This document shows positions 2,126-21,928 of a stretch of 31,634 bases of DNA, one piece after another; within the stretch, counting starts at the first letter, position 1; the number at the start of each line of letters is the position of its first letter. Source of the stretch: a virus. The stretch lies in IMG/VR virus record IMGVR_UViG_3300002835_000705, positions 1 to 31,634 of that record. One strand, written 5' to 3'. The notes under the pieces were generated by a model. It saw only the letters and a list, made by a program, of their open reading frames with translations, was not told the DNA's origin and did no database searches. Position numbers and translations under genes: made by a program.

Positions 2126-2809
2126 ATGCAAAAGATAGTTGCGTATTACCGTGTATCCACCGAGCGCCAAGGGCGCAGCGGGCTTGGGCTTGAGGCGCAG
2201 ATGCAAGCCATCAAGAACATACCCGATACGATGGTTTTATTCTCATTCGTAGAGGTAGAGTCTGGCGCAGAGGATGAGCGCCCAGAGTTAGCCAAAGCCA
2301 TCGACTATGCCCAACGTCACAAGCTACCACTAGCCGTGGCCAAGCTCGATAGGCTTAGCCGTGACGCCGAGTTCCTACTGAGGGTTCGCAAACTGGGCAT
2401 CAAGCTCATCATTGCGGATATGCAAAACCACAGCACCCTTGAGTACAACATCCGGGCAGTCATTGCCCAAGAAGAACGGGAAAAAATTTCAGTCCGAACA
2501 AAGGAAGCGCTGGCCGCAGCCAAGGCACGTGGGGTAAGGCTGGGCAATCCACGGCTCCAAGATACGGCAGAGAAGGGTAGGCAAACAATATCTCGTAGGG
2601 CTTCAGACTATGCTCGCAAGGTGAGCGTGATAGTCAAAGACCTTGAGGCACAGGGCATCAAGTCGCTCAATGGCGTAGGCCGTGGGCTAGAAGCAAGGGG
2701 GATTCTGACGCCCCGGGGCTGTAAGAACTGGTCGGATATGCAAGTCTCACGTTTATTAAAGAGGGTAAGAAATGACAAACCTGAAGCTAGTCAAAAGCAA
2801 GCCGCCTAA
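2126..2809 (+). CDS. Serine recombinase (resolvase/invertase family)
   Basis: A 227-residue protein with the catalytic N-terminal domain of small serine recombinases: YYRVSTERQ with nucleophile Ser11 and Arg9, then KLDRLSRD (Asp75, Arg76, Arg79). It is followed by the long helix EREKISVRTKEALAAAKARG and a C-terminal helix-turn-helix region ending near RLLKRVRN. It is shorter than large serine integrases (450+ residues), so its size fits a resolvase or invertase. It may resolve concatemers, invert a segment or act as an integrase. AGGAGA sits 8 bases before the ATG. First gene of the plus-strand block. Confidence 0.88.
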   Translation: MQKIVAYYRVSTERQGRSGLGLEAQMQAIKNIPDTMVLFSFVEVESGAEDERPELAKAIDYAQRHKLPLAVAKLDRLSRDAEFLLRVRKLGIKLIIADMQNHSTLEYNIRAVIAQEEREKISVRTKEALAAAKARGVRLGNPRLQDTAEKGRQTISRRASDYARKVSVIVKDLEAQGIKSLNGVGRGLEARGILTPRGCKNWSDMQVSRLLKRVRNDKPEASQKQAA

Positions 2810-2936
2810 CAACGTGGCTCAGCAGATGAGCCTGTTGACTGGTAAACCGTACGTTCTAGCCGAGCGTACTGACGTTGTACGTACATTCAAACAACACGGA
2901 TGGGTTCCACCATCACAGAAAGGGGAAAAGAAATGA
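2772..2936 (+). CDS. Small uncharacterised protein, 54 aa
   Basis: The frame begins MTNLKLVKSKPPN and ends PPSQKGEKK. It starts at an ATG preceded by GAGGG, overlaps the end of the recombinase by 38 bases in another frame, and its stop shares ATGA with the exonuclease start. The tight coupling and ribosome site support a real gene. It contains a short helical stretch and a basic tail; no domain recognised. It fills the otherwise empty gap between recombinase and exonuclease. Confidence 0.6.
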   Translation: MTNLKLVKSKPPNNVAQQMSLLTGKPYVLAERTDVVRTFKQHGWVPPSQKGEKK

Positions 2937-3895
2937 AGGGTTATGGAAAGGTAACGCCGGATACGATGCTGTCGTGCAGCAGACTGGCTGCGCTGGCAGG
3001 CAAGTCCCGGTATTCCACGCCGAACGATGAGCTACGCAAGACCATCGACGCATTGGAAATGGTTGAGCCGCCACCGTTTGAGTCCGAGGCTGCCGACTGG
3101 GGTAACAGGTTGGAAAGCATAGTCTTGAGGGAAGCTGCGCTGCGTCTGGGCATTGAGAAGATGAGCCTCGACCACCCGAAGCCCTACTACCATTCGTCTT
3201 GGTCGCTATGTTGTAGCCTTGATGGTTCGGCAGATGGTAATGGCCAGACTATCAAGCACGACCCAGCCAACGGTATCTTTGTGGTGTCTGGCAAGGGCGA
3301 GATTAAGCTAGATGGCACGGGGATTATGGAAGCCAAGGTAGCCGGGTGTAGCCCAGAAGATACGTTGCCCCTGTATCGTGGGCCGTTACAACTGCAAGGC
3401 TGTATGTCAATCCTTGAGGCCAAGTGGGGTTGCGTGGCCGTGCTCTACCAAGGGATTGCCATGCGCCTGTTCTTGTTTGAGCCACACCCTGAGAGCTTAG
3501 CGTTCATTGAGCACCTTTGCTACGACTTCCAGCGCAGGATAGACCATTGGAAGCAGACCAAGGAAACGTTGTGGTATGACCCACAACACACCGACGATGC
3601 GGCTAAGTGCTGGCCCGTGGCAGAGGAAGGTGATGAGCCAATAATCCTGCAAAATGATGCGGTGCAATGGGCCGCCGAGGTTATAGAAGCCAAAAAAATT
3701 ATCAAGGAAAAAGAGGAAATCATTGAGAGCCGACAAACCAAACTGATGGCTCTTATGCAGGGTAAGTCAAAAGCTATGGCTGGTTCGTACAAAGTGTCGT
3801 GGCCCATGCGCCACTACAAAGCCCAAGAGCAAAGGGTTATACCCGCACGTGATGCCTACTCTATCCGCCAATCTTCTGTCTCTGTAAAGGAATAA
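2933..3895 (+). CDS. YqaJ-type viral exonuclease (lambda-exo-like)
   Basis: The product (320 residues from ATG 2933) shows DWGNRLE (about 55-61), SLDG (Asp97), MEAK (Glu133, Lys135) and QLQGCM, the ordered motifs of YqaJ/lambda exonuclease PD-(D/E)xK nucleases. These digest one strand of double-stranded DNA ends to leave ssDNA for an annealing protein. The C-terminal third is helical and lysine/glutamate-rich (EAKKIIKEKEEIIESRQ), as often seen in this family. An ATG at 2900 is also open, but 2933 overlaps the previous stop as ATGA and has an AGGGGA site. The annealing protein follows two bases after its stop. Confidence 0.85.
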   Translation: MKGYGKVTPDTMLSCSRLAALAGKSRYSTPNDELRKTIDALEMVEPPPFESEAADWGNRLESIVLREAALRLGIEKMSLDHPKPYYHSSWSLCCSLDGSADGNGQTIKHDPANGIFVVSGKGEIKLDGTGIMEAKVAGCSPEDTLPLYRGPLQLQGCMSILEAKWGCVAVLYQGIAMRLFLFEPHPESLAFIEHLCYDFQRRIDHWKQTKETLWYDPQHTDDAAKCWPVAEEGDEPIILQNDAVQWAAEVIEAKKIIKEKEEIIESRQTKLMALMQGKSKAMAGSYKVSWPMRHYKAQEQRVIPARDAYSIRQSSVSVKE

Positions 3896-3897
3896 TA

Positions 3898-4776
3898 ATG
3901 AGCAACGTAACTATCCAGTCGCAAGTTCTTGACCCCGCAATCCAAGAGTCCATCGTATTGAAGGGTGACTTGTCGGGCTTGAGCCCACTACAAAAGAAGG
4001 ACTACTACCTGTATCGCTGCCAGCAAGTAGGGCTTGACCCAGCGGCTAAGCCGTTCGACTTGCTTACTCTTAATGGCAAGCAGATACTCTACGCCAACGC
4101 TAGTGCAACGCAACAACTATCCAGCGTACACAAGTTGTCCACGCAGATCACGCACCGTGAGAACGTAGGAGACATATACATTGTGTCCTGCCGGGTGACT
4201 GGTGCTGATGGCCGTGTCTCTGAGAACCAAGGGGCTGTCAATATAGGCGGGCTGAAGGGCGACCATCTGGCCAACGCCGTGCTCAAGTGTACGACCAAGG
4301 CTATCCGCCGTTCGGTGCTGGCCCACGTCGGTCTAGGAATGATGGACGAAACGGAAGTCGAAACTATTTCCGAGGCACGCAAGGTACACAATCCATTGGA
4401 TGACCTACCCAAACCAGCAGGAGCGTTCGGCAATGCAATCGGCAATGTCGTGGCCAACGCAGTACAGCAGGCAAAGAAGGATGATGTGGTTGAGGCGGTT
4501 GAGATTCCGGTTGGAACTGTATATACATTAACCCTACCCAACGGAGAGGCCGCCGACCATCCCACCTATGATGCGTGGGAGTCTGCTTACGTAGGGATGA
4601 TTGAGAAGATTGCCAAGGCAGGCAAGGCCCCGGTGCAGAAACGGCTGGATAGCATTGACCAACTCAAGCAATGCAATCTCAAGGTGCTAGATAAGATAAC
4701 CTTGGAGATGAGAATGATTCTCAATACCAAGGTAGCTAAGTGGTTGGCTCCTCTGCGGGAATCAACCGAGGTATAA
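3898..4776 (+). CDS. RecT/Red-beta-like single-strand annealing protein
   Basis: A 292-residue protein with YLYRCQQVGLDPAAKPFDLL (about 37-56), a strand-rich middle (ILYANASATQQL, IYIVSCRVTG) and ANAVLKCTTKAIRRSVLA followed by GLGMMDETE (about 146-154). These are characteristic of phage RecT-like annealing proteins that pair complementary ssDNA. The position directly after a YqaJ exonuclease confirms a two-component recombinase. AAGGAA precedes the ATG. The C-terminal third carries an unrelated helical segment. The stop overlaps the convergent endolysin gene by 15 bases, so there is no separate terminator between them. Confidence 0.8.
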   Translation: MSNVTIQSQVLDPAIQESIVLKGDLSGLSPLQKKDYYLYRCQQVGLDPAAKPFDLLTLNGKQILYANASATQQLSSVHKLSTQITHRENVGDIYIVSCRVTGADGRVSENQGAVNIGGLKGDHLANAVLKCTTKAIRRSVLAHVGLGMMDETEVETISEARKVHNPLDDLPKPAGAFGNAIGNVVANAVQQAKKDDVVEAVEIPVGTVYTLTLPNGEAADHPTYDAWESAYVGMIEKIAKAGKAPVQKRLDSIDQLKQCNLKVLDKITLEMRMILNTKVAKWLAPLRESTEV

Positions 4777-5238
4777 CGCACGCTCATGCTTGCGACGTTT
4801 GACAAGGCCGGGGAGCTCTTTGCCTCCGGCCTTTGTCCATGCCATGAACGACTCAGCAGCGCCATCGAAGTCACCACGGTTATGCTTCATCCGAATCGTG
4901 GAGCGTTGGAGATTACCTAGTCCGACGTTGAAGCTGAAGGATACAAGAGCATCGAAGCGACCTTGGGTAAGTCCTTCTGGACATAGTCTAAGTACGCCTC
5001 GCTCAAACGTAGCGAGGTCTTTTGCAAGTATGTCATTGACCTCATCCATTGTGAGAGTTCTATCCCACCCATCAGGGATTGCCAATCCTTTGCGTTCATC
5101 TAACTTTACCCTTATGTGATTAGGATCGATAACATGACCAACGCCAACAGTCCACAGTAGAGCAGGACAGCGATAGGGACGAAGTCGTACCCCCTCGTCT
5201 TTCTTGATTCCTTCGATGGCATCCTTACTTACCTTCAC
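4762..5238 (-). CDS. Endolysin, GH24 phage lysozyme
   Basis: A 158-residue muramidase. The catalytic arrangement E-x8-(D/C)-x5-T is present as Glu15, Cys24 and Thr30 within DEGVRLRPYRCPALLWT, followed by VGVGH. The family cleaves the N-acetylmuramate to N-acetylglucosamine bond in peptidoglycan. There is no signal peptide or SAR-type N-terminal membrane segment, so release should depend on the holin encoded immediately upstream; the two genes share an ATGA. Its length matches lambdoid/T4-type lysozymes. The Cys variant of the second catalytic residue is common in this family. Confidence 0.92.
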   Translation of the reverse strand: MKVSKDAIEGIKKDEGVRLRPYRCPALLWTVGVGHVIDPNHIRVKLDERKGLAIPDGWDRTLTMDEVNDILAKDLATFERGVLRLCPEGLTQGRFDALVSFSFNVGLGNLQRSTIRMKHNRGDFDGAAESFMAWTKAGGKELPGLVKRRKHERALYLG

Positions 5239-5738
5239 TTCTTACCCCATTGCCGACTTCCAAACCAGAAGGCAATGATCCCAGATAGCAAAGCCATCTC
5301 GTCCTCAGAAAAGATTACGTCGGTCGCAGCTATAAACTTCTCTACGTCCATGTCGCCTAGCCCACCTTGCAATAAGAAGTAAGTAAGGCCAATGTTAATC
5401 AGCACTAACTCAAGGACAAAGATGAACGTCACAGCCGGACGCACGATGCCATTGAGGTTGACCACCCAGTTAGAGGCTCTGGCCATGATCGCCTTGTCGT
5501 GGTCGAGAGCTGCGTTCTGGCGATCCGCATCTGTCTGCAAAGCTATTTGGTCTGTTCGGATTTCCTCTACCCTTTGTTGGGCAATGAAGCCACGCTCAGC
5601 AAGAGCAAGCTCACGCTCGGTCTGCATCTGGGCTAGCTTTAACTCTTGCGCTTTGTCTGCTTTATCTTGGAAAAAATTTAATACTTGTGGCAGACCAGAG
5701 GCTAGGAATCCAACAGCGGAGGAGATTAAAGATAGCAT
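5235..5738 (-). CDS. Holin, probable 3-TM (GTA_holin_3TM-like)
   Basis: Starting at ATG 5738 (AAAGGA 8 bases upstream) the product is 167 residues. A hydrophobic N-terminal segment (LISSAVGFLASGLPQVLNF) is followed by a long charged coiled coil, then a strong membrane segment (VTFIFVLELVLINIGLTYFL) and a third near ALLSGIIAFWFGS. This matches the layout of the three-TM holin family found in gene transfer agents and phages. It would form the inner-membrane lesion that releases the endolysin. The stop shares ATGA with the endolysin start; the start overlaps the upstream stop by one base (TAATG). An upstream extension in the same frame lacks a ribosome site. Confidence 0.78.
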   Translation of the reverse strand: MLSLISSAVGFLASGLPQVLNFFQDKADKAQELKLAQMQTERELALAERGFIAQQRVEEIRTDQIALQTDADRQNAALDHDKAIMARASNWVVNLNGIVRPAVTFIFVLELVLINIGLTYFLLQGGLGDMDVEKFIAATDVIFSEDEMALLSGIIAFWFGSRQWGKK

Positions 5739-6187
5739 TACAGGTGTCCTTTGAAAATGTAGTAAATGGTTACAACAAAAAATGAAGCTAGGAAGCACAT
5801 GATCTTTAAGTCTCTCAGCTTCTTTAGGTCACGGCCAAACTCGTCACGCCCATCTTTGACTTCCTTCATCTGACGTTCTTTGATGGCTTGAATATCTCGC
5901 CACTCATGCTCTGCCTTCTCTTTGCCGTAGCGCTCAACGAGCTGCTGAAACAAATCTTGCTCGGCTTCTTTGATCTCTTTCAATCTACGCCACTCCGCAA
6001 AGGCTGTGAGGATAGTGGTGTCACCCTTGACTATCCTCTGTTTCTTTTGGAACTGTTGCTTGGCCTGTAACTCGGCGACGCCTAGCTTTTGAATGTCAGT
6101 AACGACCGACTCAATCTCTTTGCCTGCGGCTAACGCACTCTTGATACTCTGCGTCGCACCCTTCGCCGATGTTACTAAGTCATCCAT
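5738..6187 (-). CDS. Coiled-coil protein with one C-terminal membrane segment
   Basis: A 149-residue protein with a helical, highly charged body (AEWRRLKEIKEAEQDLFQQL and so on) and one hydrophobic segment close to the C-terminus (FLASFFVVTIYYIF). AGAAGG precedes ATG 6187. Placed between a phosphoesterase and the holin in the same coupled run, it may belong to the lysis cassette. The orientation is unlike an i-spanin, whose membrane segment is N-terminal, so spanin function is not supported. A tail-anchored antiholin or membrane scaffold is possible. Function unknown. Confidence 0.7.
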   Translation of the reverse strand: MDDLVTSAKGATQSIKSALAAGKEIESVVTDIQKLGVAELQAKQQFQKKQRIVKGDTTILTAFAEWRRLKEIKEAEQDLFQQLVERYGKEKAEHEWRDIQAIKERQMKEVKDGRDEFGRDLKKLRDLKIMCFLASFFVVTIYYIFKGHL

Positions 6188-6188
6188 G

Positions 6189-7157
6189 CTAGACCTTCTG
6201 TCCCCTAAAGTAAGCGTCGCCATTGATGACCTCGCACAGCTCAGGAGGTAGCATCATCCCGTCCTTGAATGTCAGCACGCAAAAGCCTGAGCACCAGTTG
6301 ACCGGGTTCATTTCGGTGTAGGTAAACTGATCCCCGTATGGCTCAGCCAGAGTTCCTGCGTCTACCCCCCAGCGACGTCCATCGTAGTCAGAGAATGGAG
6401 TTATTTTCAGTTGGTGTAGATGCCCCGTGATGATGCTCCGACCCGATTTCAAGGCATTGTTCCAAGTGCTATGCACGCCGTTATGGTATCGGTGCTTGAT
6501 TATCACGGAGTCGTTAATGTCTATACGCCAGCCGGTATGCCAGCCCGGGAAGTACGAAAACAAATCGCTAAACTCGGAGAGCTCCGGTGCGTTCTGGGCT
6601 ATGTAGTTAAAGAGTCGCACGTCGTGGTTGCCGTACGTCCAGAGTTTAGTTGCGTTCTTAGATGCGTTAGCAATCTCATGCAGCCGGTCTTGGCAGGCTT
6701 CAATCTCCTGCTTAGGTGTTGGCGGGTTAGTCTTCATTAAAGCGGCATGGCGGCTAATCCTAGCGCCATCAAAGACATCACCATTGAGCACAATAGTCTT
6801 AGGCTTAAACTCAGTTAGCAGTTTGACAAATGCTTTGTGGGCTACGGTTGATTCCTCTGGCCAATAGTGGCAGTCGCTAGCAATGAATACATGGCCATTG
6901 TCTACCCTGTGTTCTATCACCCTGCGGTTTTCTGGTATGAATGTATTGCGTTGGCTGTCTTGTGGAGCTAAGTACGCCGGTAGAGAGATGCCATACTGCA
7001 TTTGAATCTTGGCCTTGCGTTGGGCCAGAGCCCGGACAGACAAACCAACGTGCTCGGCAGCAATCTTCGTACTGCCAAACCTTTTCATCGATGATATTAT
7101 TTCTTCGTCAGATACTTTTTTTAGTGCCACGACTTTTCCCCATAAGTTTAACTTCAT
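6189..7157 (-). CDS. Calcineurin-like metallophosphoesterase with N-terminal HTH
   Basis: A protein of 322 residues. All metal-binding motifs are visible in order: ASDCHYW (Asp95-x-His97), LNGDVFDG (Gly126-Asp127), YGNHDVR (176-179), the histidine-bearing KHRYHNGVH, and TGHLH (245-248). The first 50 residues resemble a helix-turn-helix (SMKRFGSTKIAAEHVGLSVR), which suggests nucleic-acid contact. It could be a phosphodiesterase or DNA phosphatase; the substrate is unknown. ATG 7157 overlaps the upstream Ntn hydrolase by 50 bases; a GTG at 7130 preceded by GGGGA would reduce this to 23 and is a serious alternative. Confidence 0.85.
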   Translation of the reverse strand: MKLNLWGKVVALKKVSDEEIISSMKRFGSTKIAAEHVGLSVRALAQRKAKIQMQYGISLPAYLAPQDSQRNTFIPENRRVIEHRVDNGHVFIASDCHYWPEESTVAHKAFVKLLTEFKPKTIVLNGDVFDGARISRHAALMKTNPPTPKQEIEACQDRLHEIANASKNATKLWTYGNHDVRLFNYIAQNAPELSEFSDLFSYFPGWHTGWRIDINDSVIIKHRYHNGVHSTWNNALKSGRSIITGHLHQLKITPFSDYDGRRWGVDAGTLAEPYGDQFTYTEMNPVNWCSGFCVLTFKDGMMLPPELCEVINGDAYFRGQKV

Positions 7158-7551
7158 CTATGGGCTCATGAGAACTTGTGTCGTACATACAAGAAATAGC
7201 GACCGCCTCACGGGGAGATGCCCCCATGTGCATTGCCGCTATTGCAAAGTTAGCACCAGTACCTATGGCCCAAAAGTCGTTCTTAATGCGGGCAGGAATG
7301 ATGGTACTTTCGTAGATATAAATGCCATCATGTCTGAGCTCAAGAACGGTCACGTCGGTATCAGAATCTAAATCACCACCTGATTCCAATACCTGATAAA
7401 ACTTTAGAATCTTCTCCCACTCACCGCAAGCACCGTATACGCAATCCTTACCACGGCGCAACTTTTCAACTAGGTAAAAAGAATCATCGCCGCTAACCAT
7501 ACTATCTGCGGCGATTTCTCCCGTAGAAAATTTGGCAGCTATGGTTGTCAC
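7108..7551 (-). CDS. Proteasome/HslV-like Ntn hydrolase
   Basis: A 147-residue protein beginning (M)TTIAAKFSTGEIAADSMVSG with Thr2, which becomes the N-terminal nucleophile after Met removal, Asp16 and Lys30. These correspond to Thr1, Asp17 and Lys33 of HslV and proteasome beta subunits. The C-terminal part has IGTGANFAIAAMHMGASPREAV, the glycine-rich turn and helix typical of the same fold. The start is GTG at 7551, overlapping the upstream stop as GTGA. No HslU or other unfoldase gene is visible, so it may borrow a host ATPase, process a virion protein or act alone. Similar proteins occur sporadically in phages; the role is unresolved. Confidence 0.75.
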   Translation of the reverse strand: MTTIAAKFSTGEIAADSMVSGDDSFYLVEKLRRGKDCVYGACGEWEKILKFYQVLESGGDLDSDTDVTVLELRHDGIYIYESTIIPARIKNDFWAIGTGANFAIAAMHMGASPREAVAISCMYDTSSHEPIDEVKLMGKSRGTKKSI

Positions 7552-10882: not shown

Positions 10883-12712
10883 TTAGAATCCAAAGATCAT
10901 TGACATTGCGATTGCCTTACCTGTGGTAATGCCGCCGCCAGTTGGTGTTGCAAAAGAAAGAGTTCCTGAACCGTTGGTCTGTAATACCTGATTCGCCGTA
11001 CCATCCGTTGTTGGCAATGTAAAAGCATTTACAAAGGATGTTAGGTTGCTGTCGTATGCTTGGACATCTGTGCCAATAGTTAGGCCAAGAGATGTCTTCA
11101 GCGTTGCCCCAGACTCGACTACAAAGTTAGTGCCGTTGCCGATAATTACGCCATTGTCTGTTGGGGTCAGGCCAGCTACGTCAGCTAATTGGGCATCGTA
11201 TGCTTGAACACTAGAACCAATGTTAGATGCGGTAAGTACATTGCTACCAGAGTTCTGTAGCGTCCCAGTAAAGTTAGCAGTTGTGTCTGCGTACTTAGCA
11301 AAACTAGATGCCGTGAATGTGCTGTCTTTAATTAGCTTTCCGCTTGTTCCGTCAAACGCAGCTAGACGGTCATTGACCGCAGATGCCGGGCCAACCACAT
11401 CGCCAGCGCCAGAGCCTGATGCGCCCTTCTCTGCAAGCACATCCCAGTAGGTTGTGTTCGTTGGCAGGTTGCCGGTTGAGGCAAGCTTACAGATATAGCT
11501 TGAGCCGTTGTAGCTGACTGCGTCATCGACTACATAGGATGTGCCACCAGCATAAGCGCCTAGCCAGTTCATTCCCACCGGCCCAGTTGCGCCTGTCGCT
11601 CCGGTTGAACCCGTTGCTCCTGTGGCTCCGGTTGGGATTCCAAGAGTTAATACATAAGTACCAGAGTTGTAAGATGCTGTCGCACTAGAGCCGGGAGACA
11701 GCGTGGTAGCCGTAGCAGAAAAGTTTGTTGCTAAGTTGATTGAGGCGTTGCTGGCGTTGGTTGCTGTGGTCGCAGAACTAGCCGCCGAGGTTGCGCTATT
11801 CGATGCATTAGTCGCAGCCGTGCTTGCGGTCGAGGCAGAACTTGCCGCTGCCGTTGCGCTGTTAGACGCATTGGTCGCTGACGTACTAGCAGCAGATGCG
11901 CTATTGGATGCGTTGGTTGCGCTGGTAGATGCGTTGCTTGCCGAGGTCGATGCATTGCTGGCAGATGTGCTGGCATTGCTTGCCGAGGTCGATGCGTTAG
12001 ACGCTGACGTTGAGGCGGCAGATGCGCTAGCAGCAGCAGCTACGGCAGATGCGTTGGCGGCTGCGGCATTGACCAGCAAAGCCCACTTGGCGCTGTCTGT
12101 ATTGGTTGAAATCGGCAGGGAGCCGGTAGAAGTATGTGGCGTTAAAACCTGATAGATGTTGTCGTTGGTTGTGTCTTTAACAATGTCACGCTGGTTGTAC
12201 GCTATGCCAGCCGCCCAGTTCCCACGGTTCTCACCAATGTAGTCAACCGCCGCAGGGTTGCCGCTGGAATCAAAAGAGAGCACCTTGCCAGCCCGTACAG
12301 AGGCCCGTGGCATGGTCATGCTAATGTTGGTCGGGTCAGTCTGTGGAGCCTTCAGAGCACGGTCTACACCCTCGGCATTTTGCTGGGCAAAGATGGTCAT
12401 GCTATCCAGCTCGTCGTTCAGGGTTGTAGCGAACAAGTCGCCACCAGTCGTAAAGTCTGAGGTGCGCTGGATTGCCCGGTCGCCAACAATGGCAATCTGG
12501 GTGGCTCCTGTCGGGGTAGCCGTCAGCGTTACAAAGCCCGTACCGTTGGTATTGATAGTGACGGTATAGTCAGTCGTCAGGGTAAGAAGGGTATCGTCCC
12601 TGTATACCGAAATGTCAGTATTTGCAAGGATTTCAAAAGTAAACGAATATGGCCCCGTGCCAGAGGCGGCGAGCACTACCCGGCGGGTGACATTTGAAAT
12701 TGGGACAGACAT
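10883..12712 (-). CDS. Tail fibre protein with T7 gp17-like N-terminus
   Basis: A 609-residue fibre. Residues 1-120 (NVTRRVVLAASGTGPYSF, TATPTGATQIAIVGDR, NDELDSMTIFAQQNAEGVDRAL) match the N-terminal virion-attachment domain of T7-type tail fibres. Residues about 215-325 form an Ala/Ser/Thr/Asn shaft with seven-residue periodicity. Residues about 362-380 form a collagen-like G-x-x stretch of seven triplets. A carbohydrate-binding-like Trp/Tyr module (LGAYAGGTSYVVDDAVSY) and repeated QAYD-S/A-x-L units follow, ending in AMSMIFGF. It is expected to be a trimer that binds the host surface. AAGGAA precedes the ATG. Confidence 0.88.
   Translation of the reverse strand: MSVPISNVTRRVVLAASGTGPYSFTFEILANTDISVYRDDTLLTLTTDYTVTINTNGTGFVTLTATPTGATQIAIVGDRAIQRTSDFTTGGDLFATTLNDELDSMTIFAQQNAEGVDRALKAPQTDPTNISMTMPRASVRAGKVLSFDSSGNPAAVDYIGENRGNWAAGIAYNQRDIVKDTTNDNIYQVLTPHTSTGSLPISTNTDSAKWALLVNAAAANASAVAAAASASAASTSASNASTSASNASTSASNASTSASNASTSATNASNSASAASTSATNASNSATAAASSASTASTAATNASNSATSAASSATTATNASNASINLATNFSATATTLSPGSSATASYNSGTYVLTLGIPTGATGATGSTGATGATGPVGMNWLGAYAGGTSYVVDDAVSYNGSSYICKLASTGNLPTNTTYWDVLAEKGASGSGAGDVVGPASAVNDRLAAFDGTSGKLIKDSTFTASSFAKYADTTANFTGTLQNSGSNVLTASNIGSSVQAYDAQLADVAGLTPTDNGVIIGNGTNFVVESGATLKTSLGLTIGTDVQAYDSNLTSFVNAFTLPTTDGTANQVLQTNGSGTLSFATPTGGGITTGKAIAMSMIFGF
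11571..11629 (-). repeat. Coding repeat: collagen-like G-x-x triplets
   Basis: Seven glycines at three-residue spacing (G-A-T, G-S-T, G-P-V triplets), a short collagen-like segment of the fibre. Confidence 0.75.
11738..12070 (-). repeat. Coding repeat: Ala/Ser/Asn/Thr heptads in tail fibre shaft
   Basis: Near-identical 21-base units encode S-A-S-N-A-S-T four or more times, then diverge into related heptads. It is a coding tandem repeat, prone to slippage, inside the fibre gene. Confidence 0.75.
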
Positions 12713-21286: not shown

Positions 21287-21928
21287 CTATCCTCGAATGG
21301 CACGCAGCCACTCGGCGTCAACGTTGTTTGGTTTGTATTGCCCACCAAAATCAACAATCCTACACCCGTCAGGCGGTTTGCCTCGGTCTTTTACGTGTAG
21401 GCGGTATGAATAGACTCCGTATTTCTTGGTTTCTAATACCGGCACGTTTCTATCTAACGCATCCCAGATAAACGCCTGATCGCCCAAATATGGGCCGTCC
21501 TTGTTATCTTGGTGATATTTTACCCAATAATCTGGGTTTACCACAAATCTTTTATAGACTTCAACAGGGGCTTTATGATAGAACCACATAAGGGCAGACG
21601 AAACCATGTGCGGACGCTTTAGGTTTTGCATCATGGCAAAGTCGTATCCGCACTCGGCAATGTCCGAAAAGTCATCCAGTACAACGGTATCAAGGTCAAG
21701 GTAGATGGTATTCGGCGGTAGTACATCTGGCCTAAATAGCTCAATCTTTGACCACCACCCAGACCAGTCATGTTGCAAAGCAATACGTTCGCACGGTACT
21801 GGGATGTCAGAAAAGCACACAAAGTTGTGTGGCAGGCTCAGTTTTTGAGCTACATTGTGGCTCAGCTTGGCCACGTCGTCCGGGCTATATCTTCCGCCAG
21901 ACTTGAGGACACAAGCAACCGTAATCAT
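21287..21928 (-). CDS. GT-A-type glycosyltransferase-like protein, 213 aa
   Basis: A small single-domain protein. TVACVLKSGGRYSP at the N-terminus, then WSGWWSKIELFRPD, IYLDLDTVVLDD (Asp78-x-Asp80, DxD motif), and GDQAFIWDAL, are in the order seen in GT8-like glycosyltransferases. Soluble, with no membrane segments. It shares ATGA with the gene upstream, and the two together interrupt the usual capsid-to-adaptor gene order. The substrate could be a capsid or tail protein or a host glycan; not determinable. Confidence 0.75.
   Translation of the reverse strand: MITVACVLKSGGRYSPDDVAKLSHNVAQKLSLPHNFVCFSDIPVPCERIALQHDWSGWWSKIELFRPDVLPPNTIYLDLDTVVLDDFSDIAECGYDFAMMQNLKRPHMVSSALMWFYHKAPVEVYKRFVVNPDYWVKYHQDNKDGPYLGDQAFIWDALDRNVPVLETKKYGVYSYRLHVKDRGKPPDGCRIVDFGGQYKPNNVDAEWLRAIRG

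Follow-up and report, generated by a model that had tools for sequence, protein, structure and literature searches.

A PPH-family proteasome/HslV-like hydrolase gene with a fixed metallophosphoesterase gene neighbour in a freshwater podovirus group

PPH is a phage protein family described in 2021 by Fuchs, Alva and Lupas, in a survey where neither genomic context nor co-occurrence with AAA+ proteins suggested a function for any new homolog (PMC8665760). Proteasome-type subunits are usually inactive unless assembled, and BPH, the beta-proteobacterial proteasome homologue, apparently works without an unfoldase (PMC8665760). A literature search returned no published activity or solved structure for any PPH, and no experimental PPH work after the 2021 survey. 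Phage proteasome homologs are catalogued, yet they are without an assigned function, hence the value of a fixed gene context. What is new here is mainly such a context: a phosphoesterase gene fixed directly after PPH in a common freshwater podovirus group, which provides a concrete partner to test.

The window analysed here is the whole 31,634-bp stretch of a virus record, probably a partial genome, and it carries terminase-like, portal-like, capsid-like and tail genes, which fits the tailed-phage origin expected of PPH. The PPH gene was called in the initial annotation without a strand; it reads as a single intact ORF on the minus strand (Table 1). Its protein matches phrog_1040, "peptidase HslV family", over its full length (E=9e-26). 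Relatives, mostly 142-156 aa long, are encoded on 128 viral contigs, and more than 200 phage records hold relatives. The only match in a scan of bacterial genomes was one distant relative in a Pseudomonadota MAG. Comparison with relatives of the same length gave a dN/dS of about 0.05-0.10, which shows that the gene, as part of a late operon, is under strong purifying selection. The PHROG match, the 128 contigs and the dN/dS together rule out a chance ORF.

Table 1. Features of the PPH gene and its neighbours on the minus strand of the window.
Feature	Position	Strand	Details
PPH gene: proteasome/HslV-like N-terminal-threonine hydrolase, 147 aa	7108..7551	minus	read 7551→7108 with GTG start at 7551; phrog_1040, PDB profile matches, AlphaFold2 and Foldseek
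Start codon, Thr2 (putative nucleophile once Met is removed) and Thr3	7543..7551	minus	MTT in 170/170 viral relatives; aligns with HslV T1
Asp16 codon (proteasome Asp17 equivalent)	7504..7506	minus	invariant in A1 and A2; aligns with HslV AGD motif
Lys30 codon (proteasome Lys33 equivalent)	7462..7464	minus	invariant in A1 and A2; aligns with HslV Lys
Asp124-Thr-Ser-Ser127 motif	7171..7182	minus	Asp124 invariant; Ser/Thr at +3 in 26/26 A2 rows, read by eye
Small coiled-coil and single-TM protein, 53 aa	7548..7709	minus	overlaps PPH start by 4 nt (GTGA); without Pfam or PHROG match
Calcineurin-like metallophosphoesterase	6189..7157	minus	PF00149 9e-7; phrog_221 7e-28; N-terminal helix-turn-helix-like stretch
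Holin-like membrane protein	5235..5798	minus	phrog_6637; holin from predicted TM layout, not database name
Lysozyme/endolysin	4762..5238	minus	phrog_7, PF00959

Searched as a single sequence, the protein gave no real match in Pfam (including the Pfam Proteasome model) or NCBIfam, and in the PDB it matched only BPH, below threshold. A profile search resolved the question. An alignment of 11 diverse phage homologs (A1), used as a profile against the PDB, matched HslV at 3.4e-13, BPH at 5.3e-10 and proteasome beta5 at about 8e-9. Among the 26 sequences of a second alignment (A2), three match PF00227 directly, and all 26 have phrog_1040 as their sole PHROG match. The AlphaFold2 model built from the 26-sequence alignment has a pLDDT of 87.7 and a pTM of 0.82, and Foldseek placed BPH (5ovs, 2.5e-9) first and HslV (6e-9, TM 0.75) among its PDB matches, with TM scores ranging from 0.67 to 0.77. 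In a viral structure library, the model matched phage models annotated "proteasome subunit beta" and "Ntn hydrolase". The HslV/proteasome-like Ntn fold proposed from the letters alone is thus borne out by profile search, model and structure comparison, and no different fold was predicted. Where HslV has two helices, the model has a strand at residues 37-43, a single helix at 45-57 and a strand at 67-73; by this model, helix H2 is missing from the window PPH, as described for the PPH family. Caps dock on the apical side, which is the face formed by H1 and H2.

The catalytic residues are where the initial annotation put them: a threonine directly after the initiator methionine, Asp16 and Lys30. 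In the A1 profile alignment, these align with the HslV residues that correspond to Thr1, Asp17 and Lys33 of the proteasome. Neither alignment varies at M1, T2, T3, D16, K30, G97, G99 or D124, so the conservation of the three catalytic residues, which the annotation had named as one of two points on which its reading could fail, holds throughout the 26 sequences. All 170 extracted viral homologs begin Met-Thr-Thr and have no propeptide. Gly43, the oxyanion glycine, is present in the window protein and in at least 90% of A1, with Ser in its place in a few distant members, and we take Asp124 and Ser127 to resemble proteasome Asp166 and Ser169 by position. The reading as a pseudo-enzyme was rejected because the catalytic residues are invariant, and the window PPH is most likely an active N-terminal-threonine hydrolase.

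The explanation that we favour, with somewhat more confidence than doubt, is that PPH is a minimal phage-encoded Ntn hydrolase of the proteasome/HslV branch, probably a ring peptidase without a dedicated unfoldase. Host methionine aminopeptidase would remove Met1, and the freed Thr2 would act as nucleophile and general base, tuned by Lys30 and Asp16, with Gly43 in the oxyanion hole and Thr98, Asp124 and Ser127 stabilising the amino group of the threonine. The subunits would probably form a small homo-oligomeric ring, held together by the H3/H4 face that they retain, and this ring may cleave peptides, or proteins that are already unfolded, with no AAA+ partner of its own; formation of an HslV-like ring could be altered or prevented by the loss of H2 seen in the model. 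Production would be late, together with the lysis cassette, and translationally coupled to the membrane protein and the metallophosphoesterase. Because identity to HslV is just 15-22% in structural alignment, we can only infer peptidase rather than ligase or amidase chemistry. If active, PPH would count as a self-contained threonine peptidase of very small size, and one without a helix found in most of the superfamily.

The searches for an unfoldase agree with the earlier statement that the window has no HslU-like ATPase. No HslU/ClpX-type AAA+ protein was found within the 31,634-bp record, itself probably a partial genome. The HslU/ClpX-type AAA model PF07724 was absent from 16 of 16 phage records, namely the source record and 15 related ones, five of which are deposited as complete genomes, in a search that recovered 14 of 14 positive controls. 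PF00004 gave one match, in phiM5, about 40 kb from that phage's PPH gene.

The neighbours are also as first described: genes for a small membrane protein and a phosphoesterase overlap PPH, and holin-like, lysozyme and fibre genes lie nearby. In order of transcription, the minus strand carries a Gly-rich gene, a 2OG-Fe(II) oxygenase gene, a phrog_7759 gene, the 53-aa coiled-coil/TM gene, PPH, the metallophosphoesterase gene, a small gene whose product has a C-terminal TM segment, the holin-like gene and the lysozyme gene. The 4-nt offset between the 53-aa gene and PPH recurs in many relatives. In the 53-aa protein a coiled coil precedes a single TM helix; only in this layout is it like an XhlA-type lysis accessory protein. 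The ATG at 7157, which would give the metallophosphoesterase gene a 50-nt overlap with PPH, was rejected as its start because relatives often carry a stop codon at that position; the true start is probably the GTG at 7130, with a 23-nt overlap, and this is the position of the commonest usable phosphoesterase start among relatives. Elsewhere in the window, a serine-recombinase-like gene (2126-2809, plus strand) adjoins YqaJ-type exonuclease and RecT-like genes (with 2900-4776, plus strand), all on the strand opposite to the structural genes. A 609-aa fibre-like protein (10883-12712, minus strand) has CBM_5_12 matches in two stretches and a long Ser/Ala/Asn/Thr repeat, and a protein of the head-tail block (21287-21928, minus strand) has a DLDT motif and a glycosyltransferase-like look, with no Pfam match.

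The survey of the gene pair covered 111 distinct DNA sequences encoding PPH with 55% or more identity to the window protein. The phosphoesterase follows PPH directly in 96 of the 102 that have enough downstream sequence, and the loci where it does not are a separate clade, DSL-LC04, or contig ends. Within the freshwater podovirus group, every distinct PPH gene with a readable next gene (101/101) is followed by a metallophosphoesterase gene with a short overlap, and seen from the other side, PPH lies upstream of the phosphoesterase in all 58 loci with enough upstream sequence. The gene upstream of PPH varies (the 53-aa TM protein in 40, a 5738-type gene in 29, another gene in 35) and falls into at least three contexts, so the surroundings vary more than the pair does. 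The idea that the phosphoesterase is an obligate partner of PPH outside the clade found no support: the DSL-LC04 clade has PPH without it, and in a Manatee Spring phage and a Microcystis phage a phosphoesterase that is 40% identical has lysis-type genes for neighbours but no annotated PPH nearby. In two Klebsiella phages, the gene of an RPC-like homolog overlaps a gene for a NinI-like Ser/Thr phosphatase by 47 nt.

A rather unlikely reading makes PPH and the overlapping metallophosphoesterase a single functional unit, in which, for example, a phosphatase and a threonine protease share one late target. Were it so, PPH would have its first functional context, and the NinI-like overlap in the two Klebsiella phages would be an independent occurrence. 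We treat the functional pair as a lead, since shared ancestry and operon conservation could explain the pairing instead.

Beyond this group, PPH relatives are placed in several ways. They lie beside holin and lysin genes in the Guernseyvirinae, between terminase and portal in phiM5, directly after a terminase gene in CcrSC, and among metabolic genes in large phages. A general link between PPH and lysis genes is thus not universal, and no single structural role fits all of the placements. In RcXuper, DSS3_MAL1 and phiCbK, the homologs are within about 3 kb of a nicotinamide phosphoribosyltransferase gene, and in RcXuper and DSS3_MAL1 NMN adenylyltransferase, RNA ligase and kinase genes also fall within that distance. 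Genes of these types are known to restore NAD+ and repair RNA in the course of infection. Several large phages carry two or more PPH/HslV-like genes, so that rings of mixed subunits would be possible. Among these phages are the Caulobacter phages CcrSC, C1 and J4 and Salmonella phage pSal-SNUABM-04 (PMC7823757); some of the gene copies lie in terminal repeats.

These placements bear on whether PPH is a counter-defence or host-takeover factor that acts late in infection to eliminate a protein or peptide of the host. Such a role is compatible with the peptidase chemistry of our favoured explanation and differs from it in having a defined host target. The moron-like, mobile placement across unrelated phages speaks for it, as does the proximity, in RcXuper, DSS3_MAL1 and phiCbK, of NAD+-salvage and RNA-repair genes, types known as anti-defence. 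In the group of the source record, however, PPH is a fixed part of a late operon and not an accessory gene, and there is no known defence partner, so we regard this role as improbable.

We consider it quite unlikely that PPH is a non-protease Ntn enzyme, either a connectase-like transpeptidase or protein ligase or a small-molecule amidase, the last being close to the amidohydrolase that the initial annotation allowed for. Many amidases belong to the Ntn clan, and among proteasome-like groups only connectase and PPH/RPC lack helices from the first pair (PMC8665760). On the other side, the closest folds to PPH are true proteases, and the PPH model, which has no helix before residue 45, does not show the two-helix insertion between S3 and S4 that is the signature of connectase.

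A third possibility, and a very unlikely one, is that PPH specifically processes a phage protein, for example as the maturation protease of a scaffold, portal or fibre. The phiM5 and CcrSC placements would suit it, but in the source record and in the Guernseyvirinae the gene sits with lysis genes, not head genes, and in large phages it is among metabolic genes; so mobile a position is at odds with a single structural substrate, and no evidence singles out virion-protein processing. Equally improbable, and the least favoured of the mechanisms first put forward since H2 is missing, is that PPH serves as an alternative protease ring for host HslU or another host AAA+ protein and redirects host unfolding to the phage: its nearest cellular homologs are HslV and BPH and the 16 records yielded no phage-encoded HslU-type partner, but the H1/H2 face would be changed and the HslU interface with it, the C-terminal tails are not conserved and vary strongly from one relative to another, and the 2021 survey found no co-occurring AAA+ (PMC8665760).

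The window protein resembles several known systems. With HslV (ClpQ) the window protein shares the fold, the N-terminal Thr, the positions of Asp and Lys and an IGSG-type motif (IGTG here), and differs from it in being about 30 residues shorter, in the missing H2, in the lack of an HslU gene and in a DxxS motif as in proteasome beta. BPH, its top structural match, is longer at about 180-200 aa, has H2 and a long acidic pore loop, and is 17-22% identical to it. RPC-type proteins have the same core but are 229-304 aa long with long C-terminal tails, whereas the window protein ends at 147; by length, the homologs carried by Pseudomonas phage PsgM04F and Klebsiella phage FBKp34 resemble the RPC type. 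The phrog_1040 profile (277 positions) also covers these longer RPC-type members with their C-terminal extension, which the window protein does not have.

The published PPH are closest of all. Every family-defining feature that could be tested is present: a compact protein of about 140 aa with no insertions and no C-terminal domain, a tailed phage, no propeptide, no H2, and a catalytic triad of Thr1, Asp17 and Lys33 equivalents with the oxyanion Gly. Kinship with HslV and BPH and the lack of a known AAA+ partner are likewise shared (PMC8665760). The fixed overlapping metallophosphoesterase gene is a difference, not described in that survey, and nothing excludes membership. Because the family had already been described (PMC8665760; phrog_1040), the find is less novel than the initial annotation suggested, and the window protein is a member of PPH/phrog_1040 rather than a new kind of protein.
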